Source: Xanthostigma xanthostigma
Taxonomy: Eukaryota; Arthropoda; Insecta; Raphidioptera; Raphidiidae
Length of the DNA stretch: 64,000 nt
NCBI GenBank assembly: GCA_963575645.1
Contig: OY754472.1
Span: 27,901,401 to 27,965,400 of the forward strand
Direction of reading: 5' to 3'
Every line of letters starts with the position of its first letter. Positions within the stretch are counted from its first letter, which is position 1. The notes below the pieces were generated by a model that searched no databases, had not been told where the DNA came from, and saw only the letters and a list, made by a program, of their open reading frames with translations. Below are positions 3,049 to 64,000 of the stretch, one piece after another. A program made the position numbers and the translations under genes.

Positions 3049-4493
3049 TTTTTTCTTTGAACTTGAATACCAAAAATTGTAGTGCTGTAACTCGGCGCCA
3101 CTTTTGAAAAATTTTATGTTGATGTAAAGGGCCAAAACTTGCATAAAAATATTACTTTTTTGATAAAAAGGAAATATATTATAAAAAAATAACGAGTTTA
3201 TGTTATTTTAAACAGCACATTATGCTCAAGAACATGTTACTTAATAAATTTATTCAGTAAAAATGTGTTCTTCGTCTGGTTATTTTGTAAATACTTTCAG
3301 TGGCGATGTTTTTTTTCTTTGTCTGAAGTACCGATTTAAAAACTCAACAATCCTGGTGATTTCTCATACAGTGTAATCAGCCTTGTATCAAAACGTCCAC
3401 AAAATAATTTCTTATTAAAAATGACCCGTTCAATGTTTTTAAATGATTACAAATTGTAGACTCGACAAAACACGTAGTTAGAATCTCAGGCTTGCGAGAG
3501 ATTATAATAATTATGTAGTAACCTACATTATGTATTTTAGCGGGTTAAGTTGAAAAACAGCGTTTTCGCTGAACTTCGCCCATTGTATCGAGTAACATTG
3601 GTGCAATAAAAGCATTTATTATTTATTATTATTGTAAAATTTAAATGTATATTGCTCCGTGCAAGAAGTGCCGTTCCTCTGTCGGAGTTATTGTATATTC
3701 ACTTTCTTCCAGAAATTTTTATGAACGCGAAAAAAATTCAGCATTTTCACGAAAAATTAAATATTAAAATAATTAGCGATACTTATTGAAAGTGATTTCA
3801 AGAAATAATAGTTTCTGATAATGAAAAATTTCTAATGAACGATAAGCTTAGAATCATTTTGAGGGTCCCCTTTGAAAAATATAGTGAATTTGAGTTAAGG
3901 ATGTATGAAGAGTAGATATCTCGTATCACTGATAAACAAATGAAATTTTGCCAACGTATTTCTTAAAATGGGTACTTAAATTTTCATAACAGTTTACTAA
4001 ATCATTTAAAAAATTTACAAATATGAAATTAACATGAGCCCTTGTGGGAAAATCGTACATTTGTAGTTGAATACCGGTAAAACGCACAGCACTATCACCA
4101 CGAAAAATTCGTCATTCTTAGAATATGTTAGTCGCATATCTAAGAAGCTTTGTTCAAAATTTTATCTTTTGTCACTGATGAAAATCACGAGAAAAAAAAA
4201 ATATTGCTGAAAAGTATCAAACGAACAGGCTACTTTATAAAATTCATGTCCACATATTAGGACGACAGCGCACCATAGATATATTATATCTTTATGCAGC
4301 GCACTCATAGAGTATATAGTTTATAAACATTGTTACCATAACTACCGCTTACTTTTGACAACTAAACAACGCACCGTCATAGACTGTCTTGCGCAGTAAC
4401 TAAAAAATCGATATAAATTATAAACAGTTCCGATCATCTTTTAAAAATGCACTGAGTGTTTTTGATTGGTCGTATTGATATCGCGTGTTTCAG
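3049..4493. other. Intron; possible 3' end of a retroelement near 3540-3630
   Basis: A+T-rich intron. At about 3540-3630 a sequence ending GTGCAATAAAAGCATTTATT followed by ATT-rich simple repeats looks like the 3' tail of a LINE, but no coding part remains. Otherwise I see nothing bounded. Confidence 0.35.
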
Positions 4494-4580
4494 CAATTGT
4501 GGGATCAAGACATTGCACCACTTAAACGTAGTCTCAGCACCAAGTCGCGTCGATTCAGTCGGATTGCAGAATTGGCTCTG
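4494..4580 (+). CDS. PhKgamma: Phosphorylase b kinase gamma, symmetric 87-nt linker exon (possible cassette exon)
   Basis: The exon lies between a CGTGTTTCAG acceptor and a GCTCTG/GTAATT donor and encodes QLWDQDIAPLKRSLSTKSRR followed by FSRIAELAL. It falls between the end of the kinase fold and the calmodulin-binding region. It is 29 codons long and both borders are phase 0, so skipping it would join FFQTM directly to QLQCRKFNARKK without a frameshift. The segment is basic and serine-rich, and RRFS matches the R-R-x-S consensus for basophilic kinases such as PKA. The frame and flanking exons support its being coding. That it is alternatively spliced, or phosphorylated, is inference. The frame remains open past the donor to about 4718, so intron retention would truncate the protein. 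Confidence 0.85.
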
Positions 4581-6056
4581 GTAATTGATTGCGTTGACAT
4601 TTTCAACTCAAAAAGGTTCATTTCGCTTTGTGGAGAACAGGTCCAGACGGTTGAGTCACAGCGTCGGTCTGGCCTCAGGGAATACTGGGACTTTTCCCAG
4701 TGGGCCGTCGGTCCTCTGTGATGCGGTCCGGTTCGGATCTTTTTCTTCTTAGTTACACGGTCACGTAGAGGTGTTTGACAATTTTCTCGGTAACTTTTTA
4801 GATTTCAGACCGACCCTGTGAAGTGTCACCACACAGCTGCAAATTAGAAAAAAAAATTTTAATTTTGTAGAAACACACCTTTTTGATTTTTAAATGTTGA
4901 TTATTTAGTGATATTGCACAATGTTTTGCGTGGAGAAGTAGCGTTTTTGCATTAACTGGTTAGAAAATTTGTATTGCTTTTGTAATTATTATTATTGTTA
5001 CATAATATTAGTTATTTTGTAGATGACTGTCTTGCTAATAGTGTAGTTATTAGTTTGAATGACTTATAGAGAATGTATTGTTATAGAAGTTTGAACTGTA
5101 TAGCTAGTTAAACTTAATACATACTAAAATTACTATACTGACATAAATAGTAAATATTTAAAACTTAATATTGTTATCTATTGACTTGTTTTCCGAAAAG
5201 TTGACTCATGAAATTAATATTTAATCAATACTTTGTTTTGTTTGTCTAATAATTTCTAATTATTCTGTACTAATAATGCATTACTTTTTTTCAAAATCGT
5301 TTATTTCAGTTTATGTAAATAAACATGGATGCTTGTTAACAATTTACAAAGTTCAGTTTTTGCGTGTTACTCTTGAAATGTTTGATAGTTTTTATTTCGG
5401 GTGGATAATCGATTTTTAAAATTAAAGGTTTAATATGCTGGGTTGTAGAAAAAAACATTATCAAATCATTTCCCAATTTACTGGGAAATTTAATTTGACA
5501 ATGACCTTAGATTATGATTGTAGTTTTTCTATTTACAGGAGCAGTCTAATGTAGTATTCAAACTACCTGTCATGTAGAACTTTAGATCGTAGTAATAGAA
5601 AAACAAATGAAAGCTAAATTTTGATCAAAATGGGTAGAATAGTGTTATTTTGAAGTGGAAATTCTACAAAAAAATTATGTTGGATACATCTATACATGGT
5701 TTTAAAAAAAAGCCTTTCAATCGATCAATTATTTTTTGGTAACAGTAGTTTTAAAATTCTACAACGCTTTTTTATGGAGAAATATGTGATCTCAATCTAA
5801 GAACATTGTCAAATAAGATTTTCTGACAATGCTCTCTGAAATTTAGGATTAATGTTTGTTTTTTTTCTTTTTTAAGAAAGGCTTCATCGAAACAAATTTC
5901 ATTCGCCTTTTTCTCAAAATAGTTTTTAATGAAAATGTCTCCTGCAAGGTGAAATTCCGTCTGTAATAATCATTTGTGGATTGTCTCCATAATGTATTGT
6001 CGCAGAGTGGTATCACTTACAAGCCTATAATACATTATTTTTTGCTAATTTTGCAG
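4581..6056. other. Intron, nothing recognised
   Basis: A+T-rich intron of the kinase gene. I found no bounded repeat or exon. The open frame that enters from the exon at 4494 ends near 4718 and loses any family resemblance after the donor. Confidence 0.5.
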
Positions 6057-6215
6057 CAACTCCAGTGCCGCAAGTTCAATGCACGCAAGAAGTTTCAGTG
6101 GGCTATCTTGTGCGTTCGTGCTGCCGTCCGTATACGACGTTTGCGCTATACTCCAGAACCACTCAGCGTAGAGATCGCGTGCTTAGATCCTTACCGGCTT
6201 AAAATTCTCAGAAAG
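6057..6215 (+). CDS. PhKgamma: Phosphorylase b kinase gamma, calmodulin-binding-region exon
   Basis: The exon follows a TTTTGCAG acceptor and ends at AGAAAG/GTTAGT, phase 0 at both ends, 53 codons. It encodes QLQCRKFNARKKFQWAILCV, then RAAVRIRRLRYTPEPLSVEI and ACLDPYRLKILRK. The basic-hydrophobic pattern KKFQWAILCVRAAVRIRRLR corresponds to the regulatory tail of the gamma subunit. In characterised family members this tail binds calmodulin (the delta subunit) and contains autoinhibitory sequence. The DPYRLKILRK motif precedes the strongly conserved C-terminal block encoded at 10842. Confidence 0.95.
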
Positions 6216-6221
6216 GTTAGT

Positions 6222-6600
6222 TTTACCCATCCAATTTCACAGGTGGGGAATGGTACTAATTTACGTCGAAATTCACTATTCAAAATTGCCAAGTACAAAA
6301 AAAAATATTTTTGGAAGTCTGTTTGTCTGTTCCGATACAGGTCAAACAGCTGAACGGATCGAAACCAAATTTTAGTAAGATGTTTGAAATGTAAATATGA
6401 GAAGCCCTATTGTCTTTGGGAAAAATCGGCGCATTCACAGAAAAGATATGCGCTATAACGTCATTTTTTCTGTTATGGTATATTTTGTATATCGGTTATT
6501 CTGTTTATTTTGCCAAGAAAGAAAGTTTTATGAACATTTTTTTGTAAACAAAACAAAATTAGTGTCTGCTGAAAAAAAGAAATGAGATCTAAGAAGATGC
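6222..6600. mobile_element. Truncated copy of the ACCATTCCAAC-end element
   Basis: It begins seven bases after the exon donor with ACCCATCCAATTTCACAGGT, which matches the left end of the 2409-3048 copy. It keeps the tract around AAATCGGCGCATTCACAGAAA, then stops near 6600 where the next repeat begins. The element's left end is thus almost flush with a splice donor. Confidence 0.6.
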
Positions 6601-6612
6601 AATTTCCATTTT

Positions 6613-7549
6613 AGCCCAGTCAATGCACGGTTTCTCTAGCAATTCTACCAAACAGCACCGACTAGCACCAAAATTTGGTTGTAAGTTCTACTTACCCTCT
6701 ACTTCAAAGTTGTCAATGTGCCGAGGGTTACTTTTACCCTGGGGGTGGACGCCACCCCTTCTAGAGGATGAAAATTTTTTTAGTAAAAATAAGTATTGGA
6801 ATGGATAGATTGACCAATTCTAAGCAGCTTCTGTTCTATAAAGTTTTTACTTTAAGTCAATACTTTTCGACTTATTCGAGAGTGGAAACACATATATTAC
6901 AACAGGAATCTTCTTAATCGGTGTTTTGACAAAAATTTTGATTAAAAATTTTGTTTTTTTTTCTAATTCTGTATGATAAAAATTGAGTGAGATATGGCCG
7001 TTTCAAGTTTGCATATGTTCGCAAATAGTAACGTTTTCAAGCTCTTTCAGCTCAAACTTTTTAAAAAATAAGAGCTTAAAAAAGAATTAGTTTACATCAG
7101 CTTATAGCTCTTGAAGAAAACTACAAAATGGTTTTTTGTTGAACTTGATAACTCAAAAACTAAGCGAGTTATGGTAAAAATACCCAATCACAAATTTTTA
7201 CAGTTATCAAAACACGTATATTACAACACTGATGGAGAAGATTCCTGTTGTAATATACGTGTTTCCACTCTCGAATAAGTCGAAAAGTATTGACTTTAAG
7301 TAAAAACTTCACAGAACAAAATCTGCTTAGAATTGATCAATCTATCCATTACCATGCTTATTTTTACTAAAAAAATTTTCATCCTCCAGAAGGGGTCGTG
7401 TCCACCCCCAGGGTAAAAGTAACCCTCGGCACATTGACAACTTTGAAGTAGAGGGTAAGTAGAACTTACAGTCCAATTATGGTACTAATCGGTGCGGTTT
7501 GGTAGAATTGCCAGGTTTGGCTGTTTTTTCTGTGCATTGACTGGACTAT
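6613..7549. repeat. Long inverted-repeat (foldback-type) element, arms about 330 bp
   Basis: The left arm starts AGCCCAGTCAATGCACGG. Its approximate complement ends near 7549 (TGCATTGACTGGACTATT). Matching blocks include CCGAGGGTTACTTTTACCCT at about 6721 and its reverse complement near 7420, and the block TTCGAGAGTGGAAACAC at about 6875 versus its complement near 7265. The spacer is about 6920-7200. No reading frame of note. It is in the intron before the last kinase exon. Confidence 0.8.
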
Positions 7550-7966: not shown

Positions 7967-9455
7967 GTTTTTTGGCCTGACTCTTGTCTTTGACCAGTAG
8001 CCGATCTTCTATCCTTATACTTTTTGCGTTTATTGTTTCTTCATAAATTTATGCTGCACATTTTGAGGTATGTATAGATAGCTTTGTAATCTTCAATTCT
8101 TTGTTTGGATAGTAATAAGGTTACATCTTCCCAGTTAGTACAGGACCTAATATTTTTGTTATTGGTTAATATGTATCTTAAGTGTATGTACAGAGGACAC
8201 TGGAATAAAATATGATAAATATTCCCTTCACCTGTTTCGCATGCACATAATGAGCTGGTAATAACATTTATCCTATATAAATGACTGGGACTACTGCAAT
8301 GCCCCATGCGTATTCTATTAAATGTTGTTACAAATCCCCTATTTTCTTCTATTTCTTTGAACCAGGGTATTGTTTTAATTACTGGTTTTATTTTGTGTAG
8401 TTGTTTACCTGTATGTTGAGATTGTTGATTCCAGTGATTCTGCCAGATCTGTAAAGAATAATGTTTAGCGTCTGAGTAAATGTCTGTGTAGGGTATGCGG
8501 AAAATTTTGTTAGGTGGTATTTTTGTTGCATTTTTTGCCAAGTAATCTACCAGTTCATTACCTTGAATAGAATTGTGAGCGGGTATCCTTCCAAACCAAA
8601 CTGTGTTACCTAATCTCTGTATATCATAAATTACTTGTTTAATATGGTATATTATATACGATAGTTTACTGTTATAATTGTGTGAGCTTATGGCCAGTAT
8701 TGTGCTTTGTGAATCTGTTAGGATTAAAGAACTGTTGAGGTTAAAGTCACGTATATATTTAAGAGTTTCATAAATGGCATACGCTTCAGCAGTGTATATA
8801 GATGAGCATTTGTATAACCCGTATGTCCGATGTGTTTTGAGTGTAGGTGAGTACCATGCGAAACCTACGGTTTCCGCTTCTTTATTTTTAGACCCATCTG
8901 TATAAAATATTGTGAAGTCTTTAAAACTTTCGTTAATAATTGATGCCAGAATTTTAGGATTTACTATAGAGGATGTGGGTATTCGTTTATCCACGTATTC
9001 TACTTTTATCACGTTTGGTTGCAGTATTATGGCCCCATATTCTATTTTGTAATAAGGTAGTTTATTGGCTACATTTATAATTCCTTCATCCCGTAAGTAC
9101 TGATATCTCTCTAGGCTTTTTGCTATTACTGGCGTCTGTTTATTTTTCCAGTACGGTTTCCTCCTAAAATAAGTCCGTAAGAGTGTTAGTTTAGTCGGGA
9201 TTTTGTTATTAGCTATAGATAGGGCTTTTATTATATATCTGTCTGAGATGAAATTGCGTCTTATACTTAAGGGGGGTACACATGCTTCTACCTCCATAGC
9301 ACATATGGGAGAAGATCGCATGTATCCCATCGCGATACGTAATGCCTGGTTTTGTACTGTGTCTAATTTCTTTAAGTTAGTTATACTAGAGTTGGCATAT
9401 AAGAAACATCCATAATCTAATTTGGACCTAATGGTAGCTTTATACATGTTTAAAA
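7927..9455 (-). mobile_element. 5'-truncated non-LTR retrotransposon (LINE) with A-tail
   Basis: On the minus strand the element runs from about 9455, where the coding frame begins abruptly, through the ORF ending at 8041, a short 3' UTR, and an A-tail seen as a T run at about 7927-7962 on the plus strand. 5' truncation plus an A-tail is the classic product of target-primed reverse transcription. A further T run near 7880 may belong to the target or to a second tail. It sits antisense in the kinase-gene intron. Confidence 0.8.
8041..9447 (-). CDS. LINE ORF2 C-terminal part: end of reverse transcriptase plus RNase H domain
   Basis: 468 open codons. Residues 5-65 (IRSKLDYGCFLYANS, then LDTVQNQALRIAMGY and PPLSIRR) match the segment just after the reverse-transcriptase palm in LINEs. 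Residues about 178-305 are an RNase H domain. YTDGSK gives Asp184, TAEAYAIYETL gives Glu221, TDSQS gives Asp245, and the block PAHNSIQGNELVDYLAK gives His291 and Asp301, so the catalytic set is complete. A C-terminal Cys/His-rich stretch (MGHCSS, then CACETGEGNIYHILFQCP, residues 381-418) is typical of these elements. An RNase H domain points to the I/R1/Loa-like groups. The endonuclease and RT active site are missing, so it cannot move by itself. The initial ATG is only the first Met after truncation. Confidence 0.9.
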   Translation of the reverse strand: MYKATIRSKLDYGCFLYANSSITNLKKLDTVQNQALRIAMGYMRSSPICAMEVEACVPPLSIRRNFISDRYIIKALSIANNKIPTKLTLLRTYFRRKPYWKNKQTPVIAKSLERYQYLRDEGIINVANKLPYYKIEYGAIILQPNVIKVEYVDKRIPTSSIVNPKILASIINESFKDFTIFYTDGSKNKEAETVGFAWYSPTLKTHRTYGLYKCSSIYTAEAYAIYETLKYIRDFNLNSSLILTDSQSTILAISSHNYNSKLSYIIYHIKQVIYDIQRLGNTVWFGRIPAHNSIQGNELVDYLAKNATKIPPNKIFRIPYTDIYSDAKHYSLQIWQNHWNQQSQHTGKQLHKIKPVIKTIPWFKEIEENRGFVTTFNRIRMGHCSSPSHLYRINVITSSLCACETGEGNIYHILFQCPLYIHLRYILTNNKNIRSCTNWEDVTLLLSKQRIEDYKAIYTYLKMCSINL

Positions 9456-9498
9456 TTATTTACGCACAATGTCAGTAAAAAAACAATGGATATGTATT

Positions 9499-24243: not shown

Positions 24244-24434
24244 AACCATATAATCGGCGGTTGCGTCATTAAGCTCTACGCGCAGTGCTGGCAGACCGCG
24301 TGGTCGCCGCGGGCCGGCGCACAACAGCGCAGTGGTGGAAGCAGCAAACCGCCGGAAGGGGGTTGTTGCGGTGGTGGTGAGACGATCGAACGACAGGAGC
24401 GAGACGACGAGCGCGAGGCGGCGGGGACGGCGGC
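24244..24434 (+). other. Probable 5' UTR of the Mnt SID exon, G+C-rich
   Basis: The base composition changes sharply at about 24255 to a G+C- and CpG-rich tract leading into the Mnt start codon. If the acceptor at 24243 is used, this is the 5' UTR part of a second exon. If not, transcription may start here. The minus-strand open frames (24269-24502, 24276-24494) are composition artefacts. Confidence 0.5.
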
Positions 24435-24636
24435 ATGAGCCTGGAAACCCTGCTGGAAGCGGCGCGCTTCATTGAGCAGCAGGAGAAACGACAAAAGAAC
24501 AACTTACACGCTGCCGTCGCCGCCGTAGCTCAGCCAGACGCGACAACCGCCTCTGCAATCGTCAGGGCAGGTACTGTAACTGGCGTTGTTGTCAATGGCC
24601 TGTCGCCACCGAGAAACGAACACGTCACCCACGCAG
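24435..24636 (+). CDS. Mnt: Mnt (Max-binding bHLHZ repressor), N-terminal exon with Sin3-interaction domain
   Basis: The ATG at 24435 opens MSLETLLEAARFIEQQEKRQ, then about 47 Ala/Val/Thr-rich residues up to HVTHA and a GCAG/GTAAGT donor (phase 1). The first 13 residues form the amphipathic helix (L-x-x-LLEAARF-[LI]-E) known as the SID in Mnt and Mad/Mxd proteins. It binds the PAH2 domain of Sin3 and brings in histone deacetylases. The single G left at the donor joins AA at 63312 to make Glu, which keeps frame with the middle exon. Mnt acts in the nucleus as a dimer with Max, antagonising Myc at E-boxes. The exon is G+C-rich compared with all flanking intron. The assignment is strong because the bHLHZ exon lies on the same strand downstream. 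Confidence 0.9.
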
Positions 24637-24888: not shown

Positions 24889-25879
24889 AAGGCCGCTGCA
24901 CACGAGGCTAGAAACGCTGCTAGATTCCTTGCTAGATTTGCCTACTAATTTTGTAGCGCTGATTTTCTTGATTGCTGTTGAGTGCTCGCTTCACACGAGA
25001 CTATTTTTCAAGCTTGTTTTGTGGAGAGATCTGGTGCGAGCGCAATGGCAGTTCGAATATAAACACAGAGCAAAACGTGTCTGTTGTCTGACTCTGAGCA
25101 GAATGACGCCATGTTGGTTTGTGGGTGTTTGTTCAAGTGCCCACGTGACAAGATACTGCTTCCTGATTGGTTCTTGCTCATAACTAGCAGGAAAAATAGC
25201 CCTTGTTCTAATTTTAAAACCTATCTTGTGAGCTAGCAGACCAGCCCGCAGTGACGTCATTTTTAGCTTCGTACCCAGCCTAGCGGCTAGCACAGAGGTT
25301 CCCAAACTTTTTTGGCTCGTAGACTACTTGCCATGTTTTTCGCTTTTGGGTAGACCCCCTGCTTATCTGATATTGATTTTTTGCAAATTCATTAATTTCA
25401 AATGTATTTTTGACAACCGGTATAGTGCTACTCACTTTGAACGATTTAAATTTATAACGGTAGTGAAATGTAGTGTGAAATGTTTAATTTTATACATTTA
25501 TTAATTAGATTCAAATTAAAACGAACCAAATTAAAATTTACTTTCTGTTGCATAAAATAACTAAGCAAAAAGTAAATGCTTTTAGTGTGAGGGATGAACC
25601 TGATGCTTTAATAATAAATTTTCAACATTTGGCATCAATTTAGGTAGATTTAATCTTAAATCTCTTCGGTTAACGATGTCCAGTTTGTTTCTTTTTTTGT
25701 TAGGAGATTCACTATCGTTGACCCCCATTTTCATTTCATGGACCCCCAATTTTTTTTCCTGCTGACATGGACTCCTTGCAAATTGTCGTCGACCCCTGGG
25801 GGTCGATATAGACCACTTTGGGAATCACTGGGCTAGCAGAACTCTTAGCAGCGTTTCTAGCCTCGTGTGCAGCGGCCTT
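24889..25879. mobile_element. GGCCGCTGCACACGAG-end MITE (copy 1), split by a hAT
   Basis: The ends AAGGCCGCTGCACACGAGGC and its complement (CTCGTGTGCAGCGGCCTT) are inverted. Subterminal CTAGCA / TGCTAG repeats are dense. The body is interrupted at 25293-25830 by a hAT insertion. Without it the element would be about 450 bp, like the 29996-30452 copy, which is in the opposite orientation. Open frames in it (24929-25183, 24991-25305 minus) are not supported as genes. Confidence 0.85.
25293..25830. mobile_element. hAT MITE, CAGAGGTTCCCAAACTTTTT / CAGTGATTCCCAAAGTGG ends (copy 1)
   Basis: 538 bp flanked by a perfect 8-bp duplication, GGCTAGCA (25285-25292 and 25831-25838). The empty site is visible in the sister MITE at 29996-30452. 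The subterminal region has TGGGGGTCGAT-type and GACCCCCAATTTT blocks. Copy 2 at 41456-41990 is in the opposite orientation. Confidence 0.92.
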
Positions 25880-38242: not shown

Positions 38243-40624
38243 TCTTTAACTAACTTTTCTAATTGCTATTATGCTTGATTAGTTAAAAGTAAATTTTATT
38301 CTAACGAATAAATTTATTCCAAGATTAGTAACTTCTATCTTTAATAACGTTTGGTGAATATGGGCATAAGTCACATGAACGCTACAGGGACGAGTTCATG
38401 TCTTAACCATAATGTTATCGGATTTTGCGTCATGTTATTTCAGTAGTGAGTAGACGCTTGGCTCAGAACAAATTGAATGGTATTTTCAACTTCCAGCAAT
38501 TTGTTAATAATCGTTTTTAATTAATCGGCATCGCGATTCTAGTCTGTCTCAAATAAAAAAAGACAGCATGTCAGGTACATGTGCACTGTGCACGTAACAG
38601 AACAGTCGGCGGTGACTTCTATTTCAATAACCACCTTGTCTCATCCCCTCTACTTTGATCGACCTCCAACCAACATAATATGTTCGCCTACGGTGTACAC
38701 TGTGTATTTCTATAATACACATTTTACACGGTTTGTTGTTGACAGTGTCGACTGAATTGTAGGGTTGAACAAATAATATATCGCATTTTTTGGACTATAA
38801 CACTTTTTTACATAGAAAAATGGACTCAAATTTTGGGTGCGTATTGGTCCGAAGGTAACAAACTTTCAATCGCGATTTCGCGAAAACTAATAATCCGACA
38901 GCACCCACCTTTGGCACATATAAAGAACATTATAATCCCTACTTTCTCTCCAAATTTTAGCGCTCCAGCTCAAAAAATGACGGAGCTATAACCTTTCGAA
39001 AAAACGCCTAATTTTCTGGTTTTTCCTAAATTTCTCAGGACCTAATTATCCGATTAAGACATTCGACCTCTCATTCTGTAGATATTTCAATTCTCCACAA
39101 ACCATTTCATTGGGGCATTCAGATTGCTCCATTAGTTTCAAAGTTACAAGCAAAAAAAGACAAAAATCACTTTTTTTGCAATAAACTGTTGATAACTAAC
39201 TAATGGACCGGAAACTCGAGTGAAAAACATATACCTATTCATCTGCTTATTATCTTTTATATCATCGCACAATCGGTTTGCTACTAGTCTTTATGTCATG
39301 CAAAAATGCTCTACAGCTTGGCCTATAACTATATGTAGGTACAGTGGAAAAGTTGCGGTATGTGCACTTTTGGTTGGAAAAGTTGCGGTATGTGCACTTT
39401 TGGTTTTGCCAACTATTTTTTTTTTCGACTAAAACATAGTAGGTACCTAGTACCTACTGTAATATTATTTCTCAAATTTTAGTTTTTTTGCCGTTCTGTC
39501 GCTGTGGGTCCAGGCCCATATGGCTCCGTGCTAAATCCGGCCCTCTAAGTATAGGTAATCAATTTTATTATCAAAATCTTTGCCTCCAGTCATGTAAAAA
39601 CATAGCCGTTTGAGCCATTACTAAGTTATGGACATCCCTATGTTATGAAGCATCCGAGACGATATCCGAACCATGCGCGCCTAGTCTTTCAACACGCACA
39701 TTGGCATGGCACAACACAGACACAGTTTTCACATTATCATTATTGTTGAACAGATAACAGCAACTCTGCGAATCGAGCAATGCTATTCTAGTTTGTGTCG
39801 TCAAGCAGTTTACGGAGACACGCGCGACAAACTGGCTAGTTGTTGGCTCATCAAATCTCAACATCAACAATATAGTAGTCATAATATCATTTGTGTGCAC
39901 TGTACAGCACAATATTGCATAGTATCCGCGTTATATACAGCCATAGGTGCCTAGATGCCAGTTACGCACTATCAACTGTGTGCTCGACGTCTTTTTCTTT
40001 CGTAATGATAATTTGAATTAATCATTTTGCCGGAGAGTCAATTTGTTTAATTAATTTGAGATAAGTAGTTACTGTATAAAACCACTAAAATTTCTAACTG
40101 AAGTGCGCGTTTTCATTGTTGGTATTTGTTTACTTCGAGTGATTTGATTACACAAATGCTGGCTGTGCATGTACTGTTATATAGTCACATTTTTTTTTGT
40201 TTTGTTTTAAAAGATATTTATAAAAGCGTCGTAGATCGTGAAGTAATATTATGTTCATTTTGATAACTTATAATTTATAAACAAACTGAAAGAGTAGGTA
40301 CAGTAAAAAATTGTGATTCTTAAATCAATTATTTAATAATAAACGATATAAAAAGATAAATTGTATTTTTAATGTCGTAACAGTGATGTAGATTAGGTTA
40401 TCAAATTATTCTTCCGCTTGATCTAATCGATTTTATAACAATTAAAACAGAAATTGTTTCCGATTGTCTTGTTTCTAAAACGCAACAATTACGACAAAAC
40501 TAGGTGCTCTTTTGTTTTTATCGGCCACTGAACTAAAAAAAAGTATTCCGATTATAATTTTGTAATAGTTATCACTTTTTCTTTTACTCATAAACGTGAA
40601 TAATAATTGTGCAGTGCCATACAC
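38243..40624. other. Intron interval upstream of the alternative exon
   Basis: About 38770-38850 (TTTTTTGGACTATAACAC, then ATGGACTCAAATTTTGGGTG) is a fragment of a repeat also seen inverted at 62857-62960. At 39345-39405 a 27-bp unit (around GGAAAAGTTGCGGTATGTGC) is directly duplicated. From about 39,940 to 40,600 I see no repeat. This would be the place for a promoter of the exon at 40625, but I recognise no TATA box or clear initiator. A possible acceptor (TTGTGCAG) lies at 40613. Confidence 0.4.
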
Positions 40625-40757
40625 ATGATGGGGGTATTAATTATGGAAAATGGAAGTATTGGAAATGGGATGCAACGTCCATTTGATTTACCAAACGGTA
40701 TTGAAAAAACTTGGATGCCTCCACCAAAAAAGAAATGGATTAAACATTATTTTCTTG
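40625..40757 (+). CDS. Mnt: Candidate alternative first coding exon of Mnt (no Sin3-interaction motif)
   Basis: The ATG at 40625 opens 44 codons: MMGVLIMENGSIGNGMQRPF, DLPNGIEKTWMPPPKKKWIK, HYFL. It is followed by CTTG/GTAAGAAG, a consensus donor in phase 1. A TAA lies in frame 21 nt upstream, so the ORF starts here (a later Met, at residue 7 or 16, is possible). Joined to 63312 it reads HYFL-E-ESPIHNGH without a stop, the same junction phase used by the SID exon at 24435. The predicted protein would keep the middle region and bHLHZ but lack MSLETLLEAARF. The segment WMPPPKKKWIKHYF is basic and aromatic and looks constrained. I do not recognise it. Codon use is ordinary and the exon is repeat-free. 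Alternatives: the first exon of a nested unrelated gene, or a chance ORF. The join to Mnt is inference from phase, strand and position. Confidence 0.6.
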
Positions 40758-41455
40758 GTAAGAAGTTGTATTTTGTTGACATTTAAGATTTTATTGAAAA
40801 ATCACAATTTTGAATAAAGAACGTTTTCCTTTTTATGGCTAATATTGTTAATATTAATATGGTTATTGGTTAGTTGTGTAAACTTGGCCTTTGGAAATTT
40901 TAAATTGGCAAATCTGTGTAAACATAATATTTATACTTCTTACATGTGTGCCAAATATTCTTGAGCTATCTGAATTCTGAGACAGTTCGAGTTTTTCACA
41001 AAATATATTGACAACACTTGATATAAATCCATGCATCCGTATACCTATTGTGAATAATTCCAATAAATTCATTGTTGCTTAAGTTTATAGTCAGAGTGCC
41101 CATCTGCAAAAATTTTATTGACACATACTCTCCCCAATTTTCTTTATAGGAAGTTGTGTTTTTGAATTTCCAGTTGATTTTGAATAAGTAAGCTTTCTGC
41201 AAGAATCGCAGAAATATACAATCGGTCCAGTATTGGTCCGGGGTCGATTGCCGATACCCGACCGTTGACAGCTGACCATCGGGGCGACGTAAATTACATT
41301 TTAATTAAAATTTGTTAAAAATGATAAAAATTTAATTTACAGATTACTGGGTGTTAAAAGTTTTAATACGCTTATGGGGAAAAAACCAAACGATAAGGAA
41401 GTTATAAATATTTAACATAATTATATGATTCTAATGAGTAGAGGTTAGTTTAGTT
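40758..41455. other. Intron, repeat-poor
   Basis: From the donor at 40758 to the hAT at 41456 I see no bounded element and no further exon. Confidence 0.5.
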
Positions 41456-41990
41456 CAGTGATTCTCAAAGTGGTCTATATCGACCCCTAGGGGTCGACGA
41501 CAACTTGCAAGGGGTCCATGTCAGGGGAAAAAAATTGGGGGTCCATATGAAATGAAAATGGGGGTCAACGACAGTGAATCTCCTAACAAAAAAAGAAACA
41601 AACTGGACATCGTTAACGGAGGAGATTTAATATTAAATCTAACAATTGATGCCAAATGTTGAAAATTTATTATTAAAGCATCACGTTCATCCCTCACACT
41701 AAAAGCATTTATTTTTTGCTTGGTTATTTTATGTAACAGAAATTAAATTTTAATTTGGTTCGTTTTAATTTGAATCTAATTAATAAATGTATAAAACTAA
41801 ACATTTCACACTACATTTCACTACCGTTATAAATTTAAATCGTTCAAAGTGAGTAACACTATACCGGTTGTCAAAAATACATTTGAAATTAATGAATTTG
41901 CAAAAAGTCAATATCAGATAAGCAGGGATCTACCCAAGACCCAAAAACATGGAAAGTGGTCTACGAGACAAAAAAGTTTGGGAACCTCTG
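41456..41990. mobile_element. hAT MITE, CAGTGATTCTCAAAGTGG / CAGAGGTTCCCAAAC ends (copy 2)
   Basis: 535 bp in the opposite orientation to 25293-25830, flanked by a perfect GTTTAGTT duplication (41448-41455 and 41991-41998). Same internal TCGACCCC-type blocks. No transposase. Confidence 0.92.
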
Positions 41991-49606: not shown

Positions 49607-50335
49607 CAGGGGCGGTCTTAGCTAAACTTTTTGGTGGTGCGAGATCTTATGGTGGCGCCGACACGAAAAAAATAACATACCTAATTAATATTTCATTTAA
49701 GTTCTTTATTTCGTGTCAATTTTTTTGATGAGAAGAAGAGAATAAAGGAAAAAATTTAAAAACTCTTAGAAACTAGAAAATCACTTTTCTTGCCTTTGCG
49801 CTTTCGGTTTTTTTTATTAAATCGGAATAATTTAATCCTTGGGCAATGTCATTTTCTATTGATAGAATTGCAAGATCTGACAGTCTTTCTTGACACATTG
49901 TCGAACGTAAGTACGTTTTAATTAGTTTTAATTTACTATAAAGCTTCGTTCACCTTTGGCGACAGTTATAGGGATGGTCAGCAAAATCCGAAGCACTGTC
50001 CACACATTCGGGAAAATATCCTGCCAATCATTTTTTTTAATTTGTTGAAGAACTTTTATTGGCTCTGCTGATTCAAGGTTTTTTAATAATGGATTCAGGC
50101 TCAAAAGTTCTTCAACCAATTCGCAACTAGACACGTCACATTTTTCCCCATCGGTTAAAATCATTTGCAAATCTGCACAGGCTTTTTCTAATAAAGACTG
50201 ATCAGGAATTATTTTGATGTTATACAAAAAAGACCATATATCATTGAATTTGGATAATTGTCCAAACCGAGTGATCAATGCATTTTCAATTGTATCTATC
50301 ATAGGGTAAAAGACGTTAAATTTAAACAGGTCTTC
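49607..50335 (-). mobile_element. 3' remnant of an autonomous hAT transposon
   Basis: On the minus strand the transposase remnant is followed by a non-coding stretch that ends at CAGGGGCGGTCTTAGC (plus-strand start 49607), a typical hAT terminal repeat. The other end is missing. Confidence 0.7.
49785..50335 (-). pseudogene. hAT transposase C-terminal (dimerisation) domain, ZMYM1-like, frameshifted
   Basis: On the minus strand, from about 50335 the frame reads DPEDLFKFNVFYPMIDTIEN, then, after 81 more residues, NDWQDIFPNVWTVLRILLTI and PITVAKGERSF. FPN-[LV]W-x-[AV]LRILLTIP-[IV]TVA-x-GERSF is the hallmark of the hAT C-terminal dimerisation region in zinc-finger MYM-type/TTF-type transposases. 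After GERSF the frame is broken by 2 extra bases (near 49940). Past this the other frame reads KLKLIKTYLRSTM, then CQERLSDLAILSIE. The upstream part, including most of the RNase H-like catalytic core, is missing: a stop and loss of similarity occur just before DPEDLF. It cannot make an active enzyme. Confidence 0.85.
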
Positions 50336-51660
50336 GGGATCAGATTAACATAAAGGTGGATACCTTGTACCATGTTGAGTACCTCCAACATATACAGACC
50401 CTTTATATAGGGTCGCGCGTCTAGGGCAGCCGATCAGAATAGTAAAAAAAAATCGATTGTTCGAAATACTCGAGTGGGTTAATTACATGCTGAAAAGTGT
50501 ACATTTCAATAATCTGACGATTTGAGCGTAACGTAAGGGAGTGGGAGGGTCACAAACTTGCAAAAAAAACGTCACCTTGAAATATTTGAGCGCGATCGAT
50601 TTTTTTTTTATTTTGAAGGAAATACTTCAAGAATAACGGAAAAAATATTATAATCTGACGATTTCCACAAGCCGAAGAAGCACAAATCGCCAATAAAGTT
50701 TAGTGCGTGCAGCTGCAGTGAAGCATGTATTCTCCAGTCCGCGCCTCTCATTCCCTTTCACGATTTCTCTATCTCTTACTCTCTCGCACCGTCCTCACAC
50801 CAGGGTTGCCAACTTGGGGATTTCCCCCCTAAATTTGGGGGGATAAAATTTAGAATGGAATTTTTTCAGGCCCTAATATTTTTGAGGGTAATTTTAGGGA
50901 CACTCACACAAAAAACTTAAAATTTTATAAAAGACATTAAATGAATTACAAAGTAGGGGAGCTTGAACATTTTTTTGTAATTATTTTTTTTACATTTTTG
51001 AAAGTTCGAACACGCTCCCCTCACCACTAAAAAGGCATACATCATATAAACTTCTACAAAGGGCTGGAGTGACATGGCATTTAGCCCTCTGGGCTCCCCT
51101 ACAATCATTTTTTATTGTTAACTTATCTTCATTTTTTTTTTTTCAATTTGTCAGATTAAGAAAATCTCTCCAAATAATCGTCAGATTATGGGTCAGCATG
51201 ACTTAGGACATCAAGCTGAATCGCCTGTATAAATAATCTGACGCGCTCGAGTATTTCAAAATGGCGATTTTTTTTGCATTTTCAAGAAGCCGCCACGAGC
51301 TTGCGTCATGTCCAAATCGTCAATCTTTTGAATGGAAGCTTTTTTCGGGTTCACTGAACATCCCCTTTGAATATCTGACGCGCTCGAATAACTTTTTTTT
51401 CCGTTTTCAACCCTTCCGTACAGCCACGCCCACCATGCAAACTGTCAGATTAACATACCTCCAATATCAGAGACACGCGGCGCATATACACTATGAATAT
51501 CTGACGCGCTCGAGTATTTCCATGTGACTATTTTTTTTACATTTTTGAAAACCTGCAGACGCTCCCCCCACCGGTGAAAGGATGTACATCATATAACCTT
51601 TTTTTATTTCTACCATCTAATCTTCAAAATCCAATAGGTCCCTACGACGCTCGAGTAACT
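50336..51660. repeat. Repeat block with recurring TCTGACGCGCTCGAGTATTT
   Basis: The 20-mer occurs essentially unchanged at about 51238 and 51501 and in shortened form near 51373 (TCTGACGCGCTCGAATAA). Related pieces (TCTGACGA, ACTCGAG) are near 50460, 50514, 50651 and 51645. Stretches of about 130 bp between the motifs differ. Several share ACATCATATAA and TTTTGAAA / CGCTCCCC. No transposase. Superfamily unknown to me. Confidence 0.55.
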
Positions 51661-54149: not shown

Positions 54150-54980
54150 GGTAAAAATTGGTTGTCTGTAAAGTCGGTTTACGGACGATAGTTTTACGTG
54201 ATAACGTATTCCGCTCGAATATCATATTTAATAATACATTACTGCACTATCGCTTGCACGCACAAGGTCAGGCGGAACTTTACGGAACGTTACACTTTTT
54301 CGTGCGTGCAGCTGGTGTTTCATCAATTTATAAGACGTTATCACGTCAAAAACTTAGTCCGCCATCTTTAGAAGTCCGCCATATTCGATTTAGAGTGACG
54401 TCACTTTATTTTTCGAGTTATTCTCAGCAAGCCCTTTCATTTGATACCCATATTGTAGGAAAGCATAATAAAATTTGTCCGCCATCTTTAGAAGTCCGCC
54501 ATATTGGATTTAGAGTGACGTCACTTTATTTTTCGAGTTATTTTCAGCAAGCCCTTTCATTTGATACCCATATTGTAGGAAAACATAAAAAACTTAGTCC
54601 GCCATCTTTAGAAGTCCGCCATATTGGTTTTAGACTGACGTCACTTTATTTTTCGAGTTATTCTCAGCAAGTCCTTTTATTTGATACTCATATTGTAGGA
54701 AACCATAATAAAATTAGTCCGCCATCTTAAGAAGTCCGCCATATTGGATTTAGAGTGACGTCACACAGCTAACCATGCATTGTCATTCAAACTAAACGTG
54801 TATACAAATTTTCATCTCAATCGGTTGATGATATCTGCTTCAAAATTACCGAAGGCATTCTAGTCGCTCACTTAGTAACGTTAGGAACGTTACACTTTTT
54901 CGTGCATGCAGCCGGTGTTTCATCTTTTTATTTTGACGTGATTCATCAATTTATAAGACGTTATCACGTCAAAAATATTA
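54150..54980. repeat. 120-bp tandem array (3.5 units) between ACGTGATAACGT-family ends
   Basis: 54351-54769 contains units starting at 54351, 54471, 54591 and 54711, each with TCCGCCATCTTTAGAAGTCC and TTTAGAGTGACGTCAC. The unit is exactly 120 bp, a multiple of 3, which keeps a 190-codon frame open across it (54158-54730). That frame is a by-product. Flanks 54150-54350 and 54877-54976 belong to the ACGTGATAACGT family. Confidence 0.85.
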
Positions 54981-63311: not shown

Positions 63312-63642
63312 AAGAGAGTCCAATTCACAATGGTCATTCATATGCAGCTACGGCACCTTCAACGGCTGCAACATTTCGGAATATAAGCGGAGTAACAGCG
63401 AGTACATTTCCTGTAACGCTAGTACAACCGAACGGTGCTAAAAATGTCACTGCTACCTTGTTGCCGTTCGGTGCTGCAGCTTCCACCGGGAGTCCTGGCA
63501 ATCGTGTGGCAGCTACCACAACCCATCACCATCAACAGATCAGCAACGGACAACATAGGGTGGCCATCTCTGAGACAAGGATGCACGATGGTCCAACTCC
63601 GCTCGTTGTCGATGAAGGAAATGAAATTAAGAGACGAAATGG
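63312..63642 (+). CDS. Mnt: Mnt, middle exon (linker between N-terminus and bHLHZ)
   Basis: Acceptor TTTGTTTTCAG at 63311, donor ATGG/GTGAGT at 63642. In phase with the single G from either upstream exon it reads E-ESPIHNGHSYAATAPSTA, and continues Thr/Ala/Ser/Pro-rich to VVDEGNEIKRRNG. This low-complexity, proline/threonine-rich stretch matches the poorly conserved region between SID and bHLH in Mnt proteins. It would be disordered. It leaves two bases (GG) that join A at 63722 to make Gly. The upstream Met at 63302 lies in the intron and is not a start. Confidence 0.88.
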
Positions 63643-63721: not shown

Positions 63722-64000
63722 ACCGTGTTTATTGCGATCAGGGACGCGAGAAGTACATAATAAACTAGAAAAAAACCGGCGCGCTCATCTAAAAGAGTGT
63801 TTTGAAGTATTAAAACGTCAATTACCACCGCAGGCTGATGAAAAAAAATCATCAAACTTAAGTATTTTACATTCGGCATTGCGTCACATTCAGTGCTTGA
63901 GACGGAAAGAACGAGAATATGAACACGAAATGGAAAGGCTTGCAAGGGAGAAGATAGCTCTGCAGCAGAGACTAGCCTCATTAAAAAAGGAACTGTCAGC
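63722..64000 (+). CDS. Mnt: Mnt, bHLH-leucine-zipper exon (runs off the window)
   Basis: After a TTTTTAG acceptor the exon encodes PCLLRSGTREVHNKLEKNRR, then AHLKECFEVLKRQLPPQADE and so on to KIALQQRLASLKKELS at the window edge. VHNKLEKNRR contains the His-x3-Glu-x3-Arg triad of class B bHLH proteins, which read CACGTG. Helix 1 is about AHLKECFEVLKRQLP, the loop PQADEKKSS, helix 2 NLSILHSALRHIQCLRRKER. It passes straight into the zipper (EYEHEMERLAREKIALQQRL). EYEHEMERLAREKIA is a strong Mnt signature. The domain dimerises with Max-type partners. No stop or frameshift in view. The C-terminal part of the gene lies outside. Confidence 0.95.

Follow-up and report, generated by a model that had tools for sequence, protein, structure and literature searches.

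The question raised by a 64,000-nucleotide stretch of Xanthostigma xanthostigma DNA (GenBank assembly GCA_963575645.1, contig OY754472.1, positions 27,901,401 to 27,965,400; hereafter the window) is whether its Mnt gene possesses a second start exon that would leave out the Sin3-interaction domain (SID). The + strand of the window carries the 5' part of this gene, consisting of a SID exon, a middle exon and a basic helix-loop-helix (bHLH)-zipper exon, which, judged by its sequence, probably belong to the growth repressor Mnt rather than to another MXD member. The SID and middle exons are separated by an AT-rich intron of 38.7 kb, and within it lies an open frame (40625-40757 of the window) that may be the coding portion of a genuine second start exon of Mnt. 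Judged from the sequence, this interpretation is plausible overall, at slightly less than an even chance.

The frame, its splice signals and its phase can be read directly. An in-frame TAA (40604-40606) stands upstream of the ATG at 40625, and the frame ends at 40757 with the donor TTG/GTAAGA, in the same phase as the SID exon, which has the donor CAG/GTAAGT after 24636. The context of ATG 40625 is poor; further in-frame ATGs are present at 40628 and 40643, both with A at -3 and G at +4. Joining 40757 to 63312 gives ...WIKHYFL/EESPIHNGHS... (...PPPKKKWIKHYFLEESPIHNGHS... across the junction), and this reading is open into the bHLH exon and shows no stop through it to the window end; the candidate would be joined in frame to the common exons, as in an isoform of the type of mammalian MXI1-0, which is compared below. 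The Mnt frame also stays open beyond the window end, in the downstream sequence L009. The joined protein carries the helix-loop-helix (HLH) domain of a Mnt/MXD repressor (Pfam HLH, E 3e-14, 53 bits against a cut-off of 20.7), with a putative zipper part. Reading and joining the sequence in this way bore out an earlier note on this DNA, in which the 44-codon frame, the upstream TAA, the donor, phase 1 and the in-frame joining to 63312 had been reported.

Use of the candidate exon would be expected to remove the SID, because the Sin3 pattern is found in the 24-kb exon only. There, in a translation that begins MSLETLLEAARFIEQQEKRQ... from ATG 24435, the pattern is matched by LETLLEAARFI, as in an N-terminal SID, and it is absent from the 44-residue alternative peptide. 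Single-sequence structure models were in line with this: the SID exon was modelled with a helix over residues 3-32, confident in its first part (predicted local distance difference test, pLDDT, 90 and 93 for its first two blocks), and the alternative peptide was modelled with no helix, at low confidence (mean pLDDT 61). A sequence search of PDB with the SID exon gave no match up to E 10. The pattern search, the in-frame join and the helix models together agree with the proposal that SID removal would follow from use of this exon.

The candidate is situated in a patch of 2595 bases (38861-41455) with no second copy within the window (blastn, E 1e-5, at least 50 bases); no other patch of this kind in the intron is as long, the next being 2571 bases. 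The description of this patch as repeat-free thus stands as regards copies within the window, although part of it may belong to a repeat of the wider genome. Just 3' of the candidate exon lies one member of an inverted pair in the same intron (41456-41990 and 25293-25830), the two copies being 94% alike over 540 aligned columns. The coordinates of the Mnt features are collected in Table 1.

Table 1. Mnt features placed in the window of Xanthostigma xanthostigma DNA
Feature	Position	Strand	Remarks
Likely SID exon	24244..24636	+	ATG 24435, translation MSLETLLEAARFIEQQ...; 5' part untranslated; start 24244 is a predicted acceptor only
Inferred promoter or 5' untranslated region of candidate exon	39560..40624	+	
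Candidate alternative start exon, coding part	40625..40757	+	44 codons and 1 base, phase 1, predicted
Middle Mnt exon	63312..63642	+	acceptor TTTTCAG/AAGAG at 63312; takes phase 1 from either start exon
bHLH-zipper exon of Mnt	63722..64000, runs beyond window end	+	joined reading and Pfam HLH

The strongest competing explanation, with somewhat less than an even chance, is that an open frame arose by chance in this long AT-rich intron and happens to end at GGTAAG in the right phase. Several observations weigh on this side and against a real exon. In a donor matrix the donor of the candidate scores 3.1, compared with 9.0 for that of the SID exon and 5.4 for that of the middle exon. When any donor scoring at least as high as that of the candidate was accepted at the end of frames of at least 44 codons, 0.35 and 0.38 phase-1 frames per strand were expected by chance (Markov orders 1 and 3, respectively, 40 simulations each). 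The intron itself holds one such phase-1 frame on the + strand and one on the - strand, and three + strand frames pass the rule when any phase is allowed. There are 71 ATG frames of at least 44 codons on the two intron strands, among which the candidate ranks 17th in codon composition, and 23% of stop-free 44-codon intronic stretches score as well. Protein-likeness per 44 codons is 0.13 for the candidate compared with 16.4, 10.6 and 2.7 for the SID, middle and bHLH exons; its composition is thus at background level and below that of the three true exons, which counts somewhat against a coding exon. Furthermore, the feature was singled out after the fact, and both this donor rule and the stricter one below were chosen after the site had been seen.

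The same weighing extends to the region upstream. In the AT-rich 1.1 kb before the candidate, TATAAA is found at 40075, 40219, 40276 and 40347 and the initiator-like TCAKTY at 39887, 40022 and 40255, but only the pair at 40219 and 40255 has near-usual spacing, and no convincingly placed TATAAA/initiator pair was found in this region, no scan for a downstream promoter element (DPE) having been made. GC content reaches 0.39-0.43 (150-base bins) over 39450-40049, a modest rise, and CpG exceeds expectation at 40200-40499 (4 against 1.5 and 6 against 2.7 expected, which are small numbers), but no GC island was seen at the candidate frame. The internal promoter that the earlier note had proposed is a putative one, to which these matches give no clear support.

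What speaks against a chance frame is the exact donor. With GGTAAG required, in phase 1 and after at least 44 codons, the candidate is the only such frame on either intron strand; the chance expectation on the + strand is 0.07, and at least one case appeared in just 6.5% of 200 order-3 simulated introns. The layout of the candidate exceeds chance weakly at best.

If the frame is indeed a SID-less start exon, its transcription, splicing and protein function might, as we infer them, proceed as follows. The transcript would start within the intron, or would have an upstream non-coding exon, and 40757 would be spliced to 63312. In the resulting Mnt product a basic N-terminus would replace the SID helix. 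Such a protein would still pair with Max through its bHLH-zipper and sit on E-boxes, and would be unable to recruit Sin3 through the SID. Most likely it would then repress weakly, act in a dominant-negative manner or, like SID-deleted vertebrate MNT, serve as an activator.

A more elaborate form of this proposal, which we consider unlikely, is that the second start exon is conserved and that a basic aromatic segment (PPPKKKWIKHYF) which it encodes replaces the Sin3-binding helix and contacts some other cofactor. The locus would then be able to switch from a repressor that depends on Sin3 to a Max partner that does not, and back. The PPPKKK of the alternative peptide fits a simple nuclear-localisation pattern. 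None of the CtBP, Groucho and Sin3 patterns was matched in this peptide, and the suggestion that a different partner is bound through the basic segment went without support; such a partner is conjecture. Two specific candidates were rejected. Mimicry of the SID by KKKWIKHYF was discarded on the absence of the Sin3 pattern and, more weakly, on the lack of a helix in the low-confidence model mentioned above, and a CtBP site in RPFDLP on its failure to match the pattern.

The start exon may alternatively be reached from a shared upstream non-coding exon under a single promoter, yielding the same protein; this sub-case of the SID-less start exon reading is, by itself, quite unlikely. It draws on the acceptor-like site at 24244 before the SID ATG, which falls in the top 1.5% of intron AG scores, a strength from which Mnt probably has a non-coding exon upstream. 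The corresponding site at the candidate is weak, however: GTGCAG at 40609-40614 would place an acceptor at 40615, 10 bases before ATG 40625, with a score that 38.5% of intron AGs equal or exceed. It is very improbable that the candidate is a cassette or poison exon lying between the SID and middle exons and joined from the SID donor to this same ordinary acceptor, since reading from the SID phase through 40615 meets a stop after 4 codons and none of the 11 AGs listed in 40300-40720 is both in frame and open (AG 40657 gives an open reading, but not in the SID frame, and has a low score), so that a fused SID-candidate protein is excluded and the exon would have to be a decay-inducing one.

Forms of dMnt without a SID have been discussed for flies. 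Among characterized systems, the nearest known case to the proposed SID-less start exon is MXI1-0 of mammals. PMC2441969 describes it as arising from an alternative first exon without expression of the same SID, and PMC8984142 as encoding a different SID, naming Mxi1 WR as lacking one. The likeness to MXI1-0 is that the usual first exon is exchanged for an alternative one and the bHLH-zipper exons are kept (PMC2441969; PMC8984142). The candidate peptide differs in having no SID-like pattern and, in a low-confidence model, no helix; it also belongs to another gene of the family, and its transcription is putative. With the MXI1 isoforms devoid of the SID-encoding first exon and with Mxi1 WR (PMC2441969; PMC8984142) it would share the missing SID, but it would differ from them by adding a new N-terminus of 37-44 residues. 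The principle of an alternative first exon is already known in the family from MXI1, and a start exon of Mnt without the SID would be a variation on it. In Drosophila, dMnt is the sole MXD-family protein of the fly and opposes dMyc, according to PMC8465425. No insect Mnt isoform of the present kind was found among the open-access titles and beginnings of abstracts that were listed, and none is mentioned in the available parts of two reviews (PMC7358075; PMC8870482).

The 44-residue peptide gave no Pfam match up to E 1 and no PDB match up to E 10. In viral contigs neither its motif nor the common Mnt exons had a relative, and prokaryote contigs gave none for the peptide; none of these collections is expected to contain insect exons. 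As the collections comprised prokaryotes, viruses, PDB chains and families, these negatives are uninformative on conservation. In the genome (623 Mb, 28 contigs) an HLH search returned 53 places including the Mnt locus. Of the 52 places besides this locus, 28 (L001-L008, L012-L031) were searched for an Mnt retrocopy preserving the spliced junction, which was rejected as far as they are concerned, no close Mnt copy being present around them. The best Mnt-like match there, in L019, covers 78 residues at 35% identity, and the alternative peptide matched at best over 9 residues (E 0.75).

Other features were also recognized. Inside the Mnt intron, a fragment of a hAT transposase dimerisation region is found at 49928-50344 (-) of the window (Pfam E 7.5e-6). 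In the translation of an open frame at 54155-54730 (+), some 40 residues (PPSLEVRHIGFRVTSLYFSSY...) recur about three times, with a Pfam FNIP repeat score of 22.1 bits against a cut-off of 21 that is probably a chance match; this is likely to be a tandem DNA repeat. The long open frame at 8041-9459 (-) of the window contains an RNase H domain (Pfam E 1.3e-10) and is, by its sequence, the C-terminal part of an element like a non-long terminal repeat (non-LTR) retrotransposon. Within the window, no Rfam match reached the gathering threshold. In L010, at about 3720-6700 (+), the next gene may begin (MGKHKKQLKLEKSKVKLKAKK...), a putative one that is reminiscent of IPI1/TEX10.

If the SID-less start exon proves to be real, one Mnt gene could tune Myc-driven growth through the choice of its start exon, as does mammalian MXI1. 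It would also offer a natural SID-less control for how far repression by Mnt depends on Sin3.
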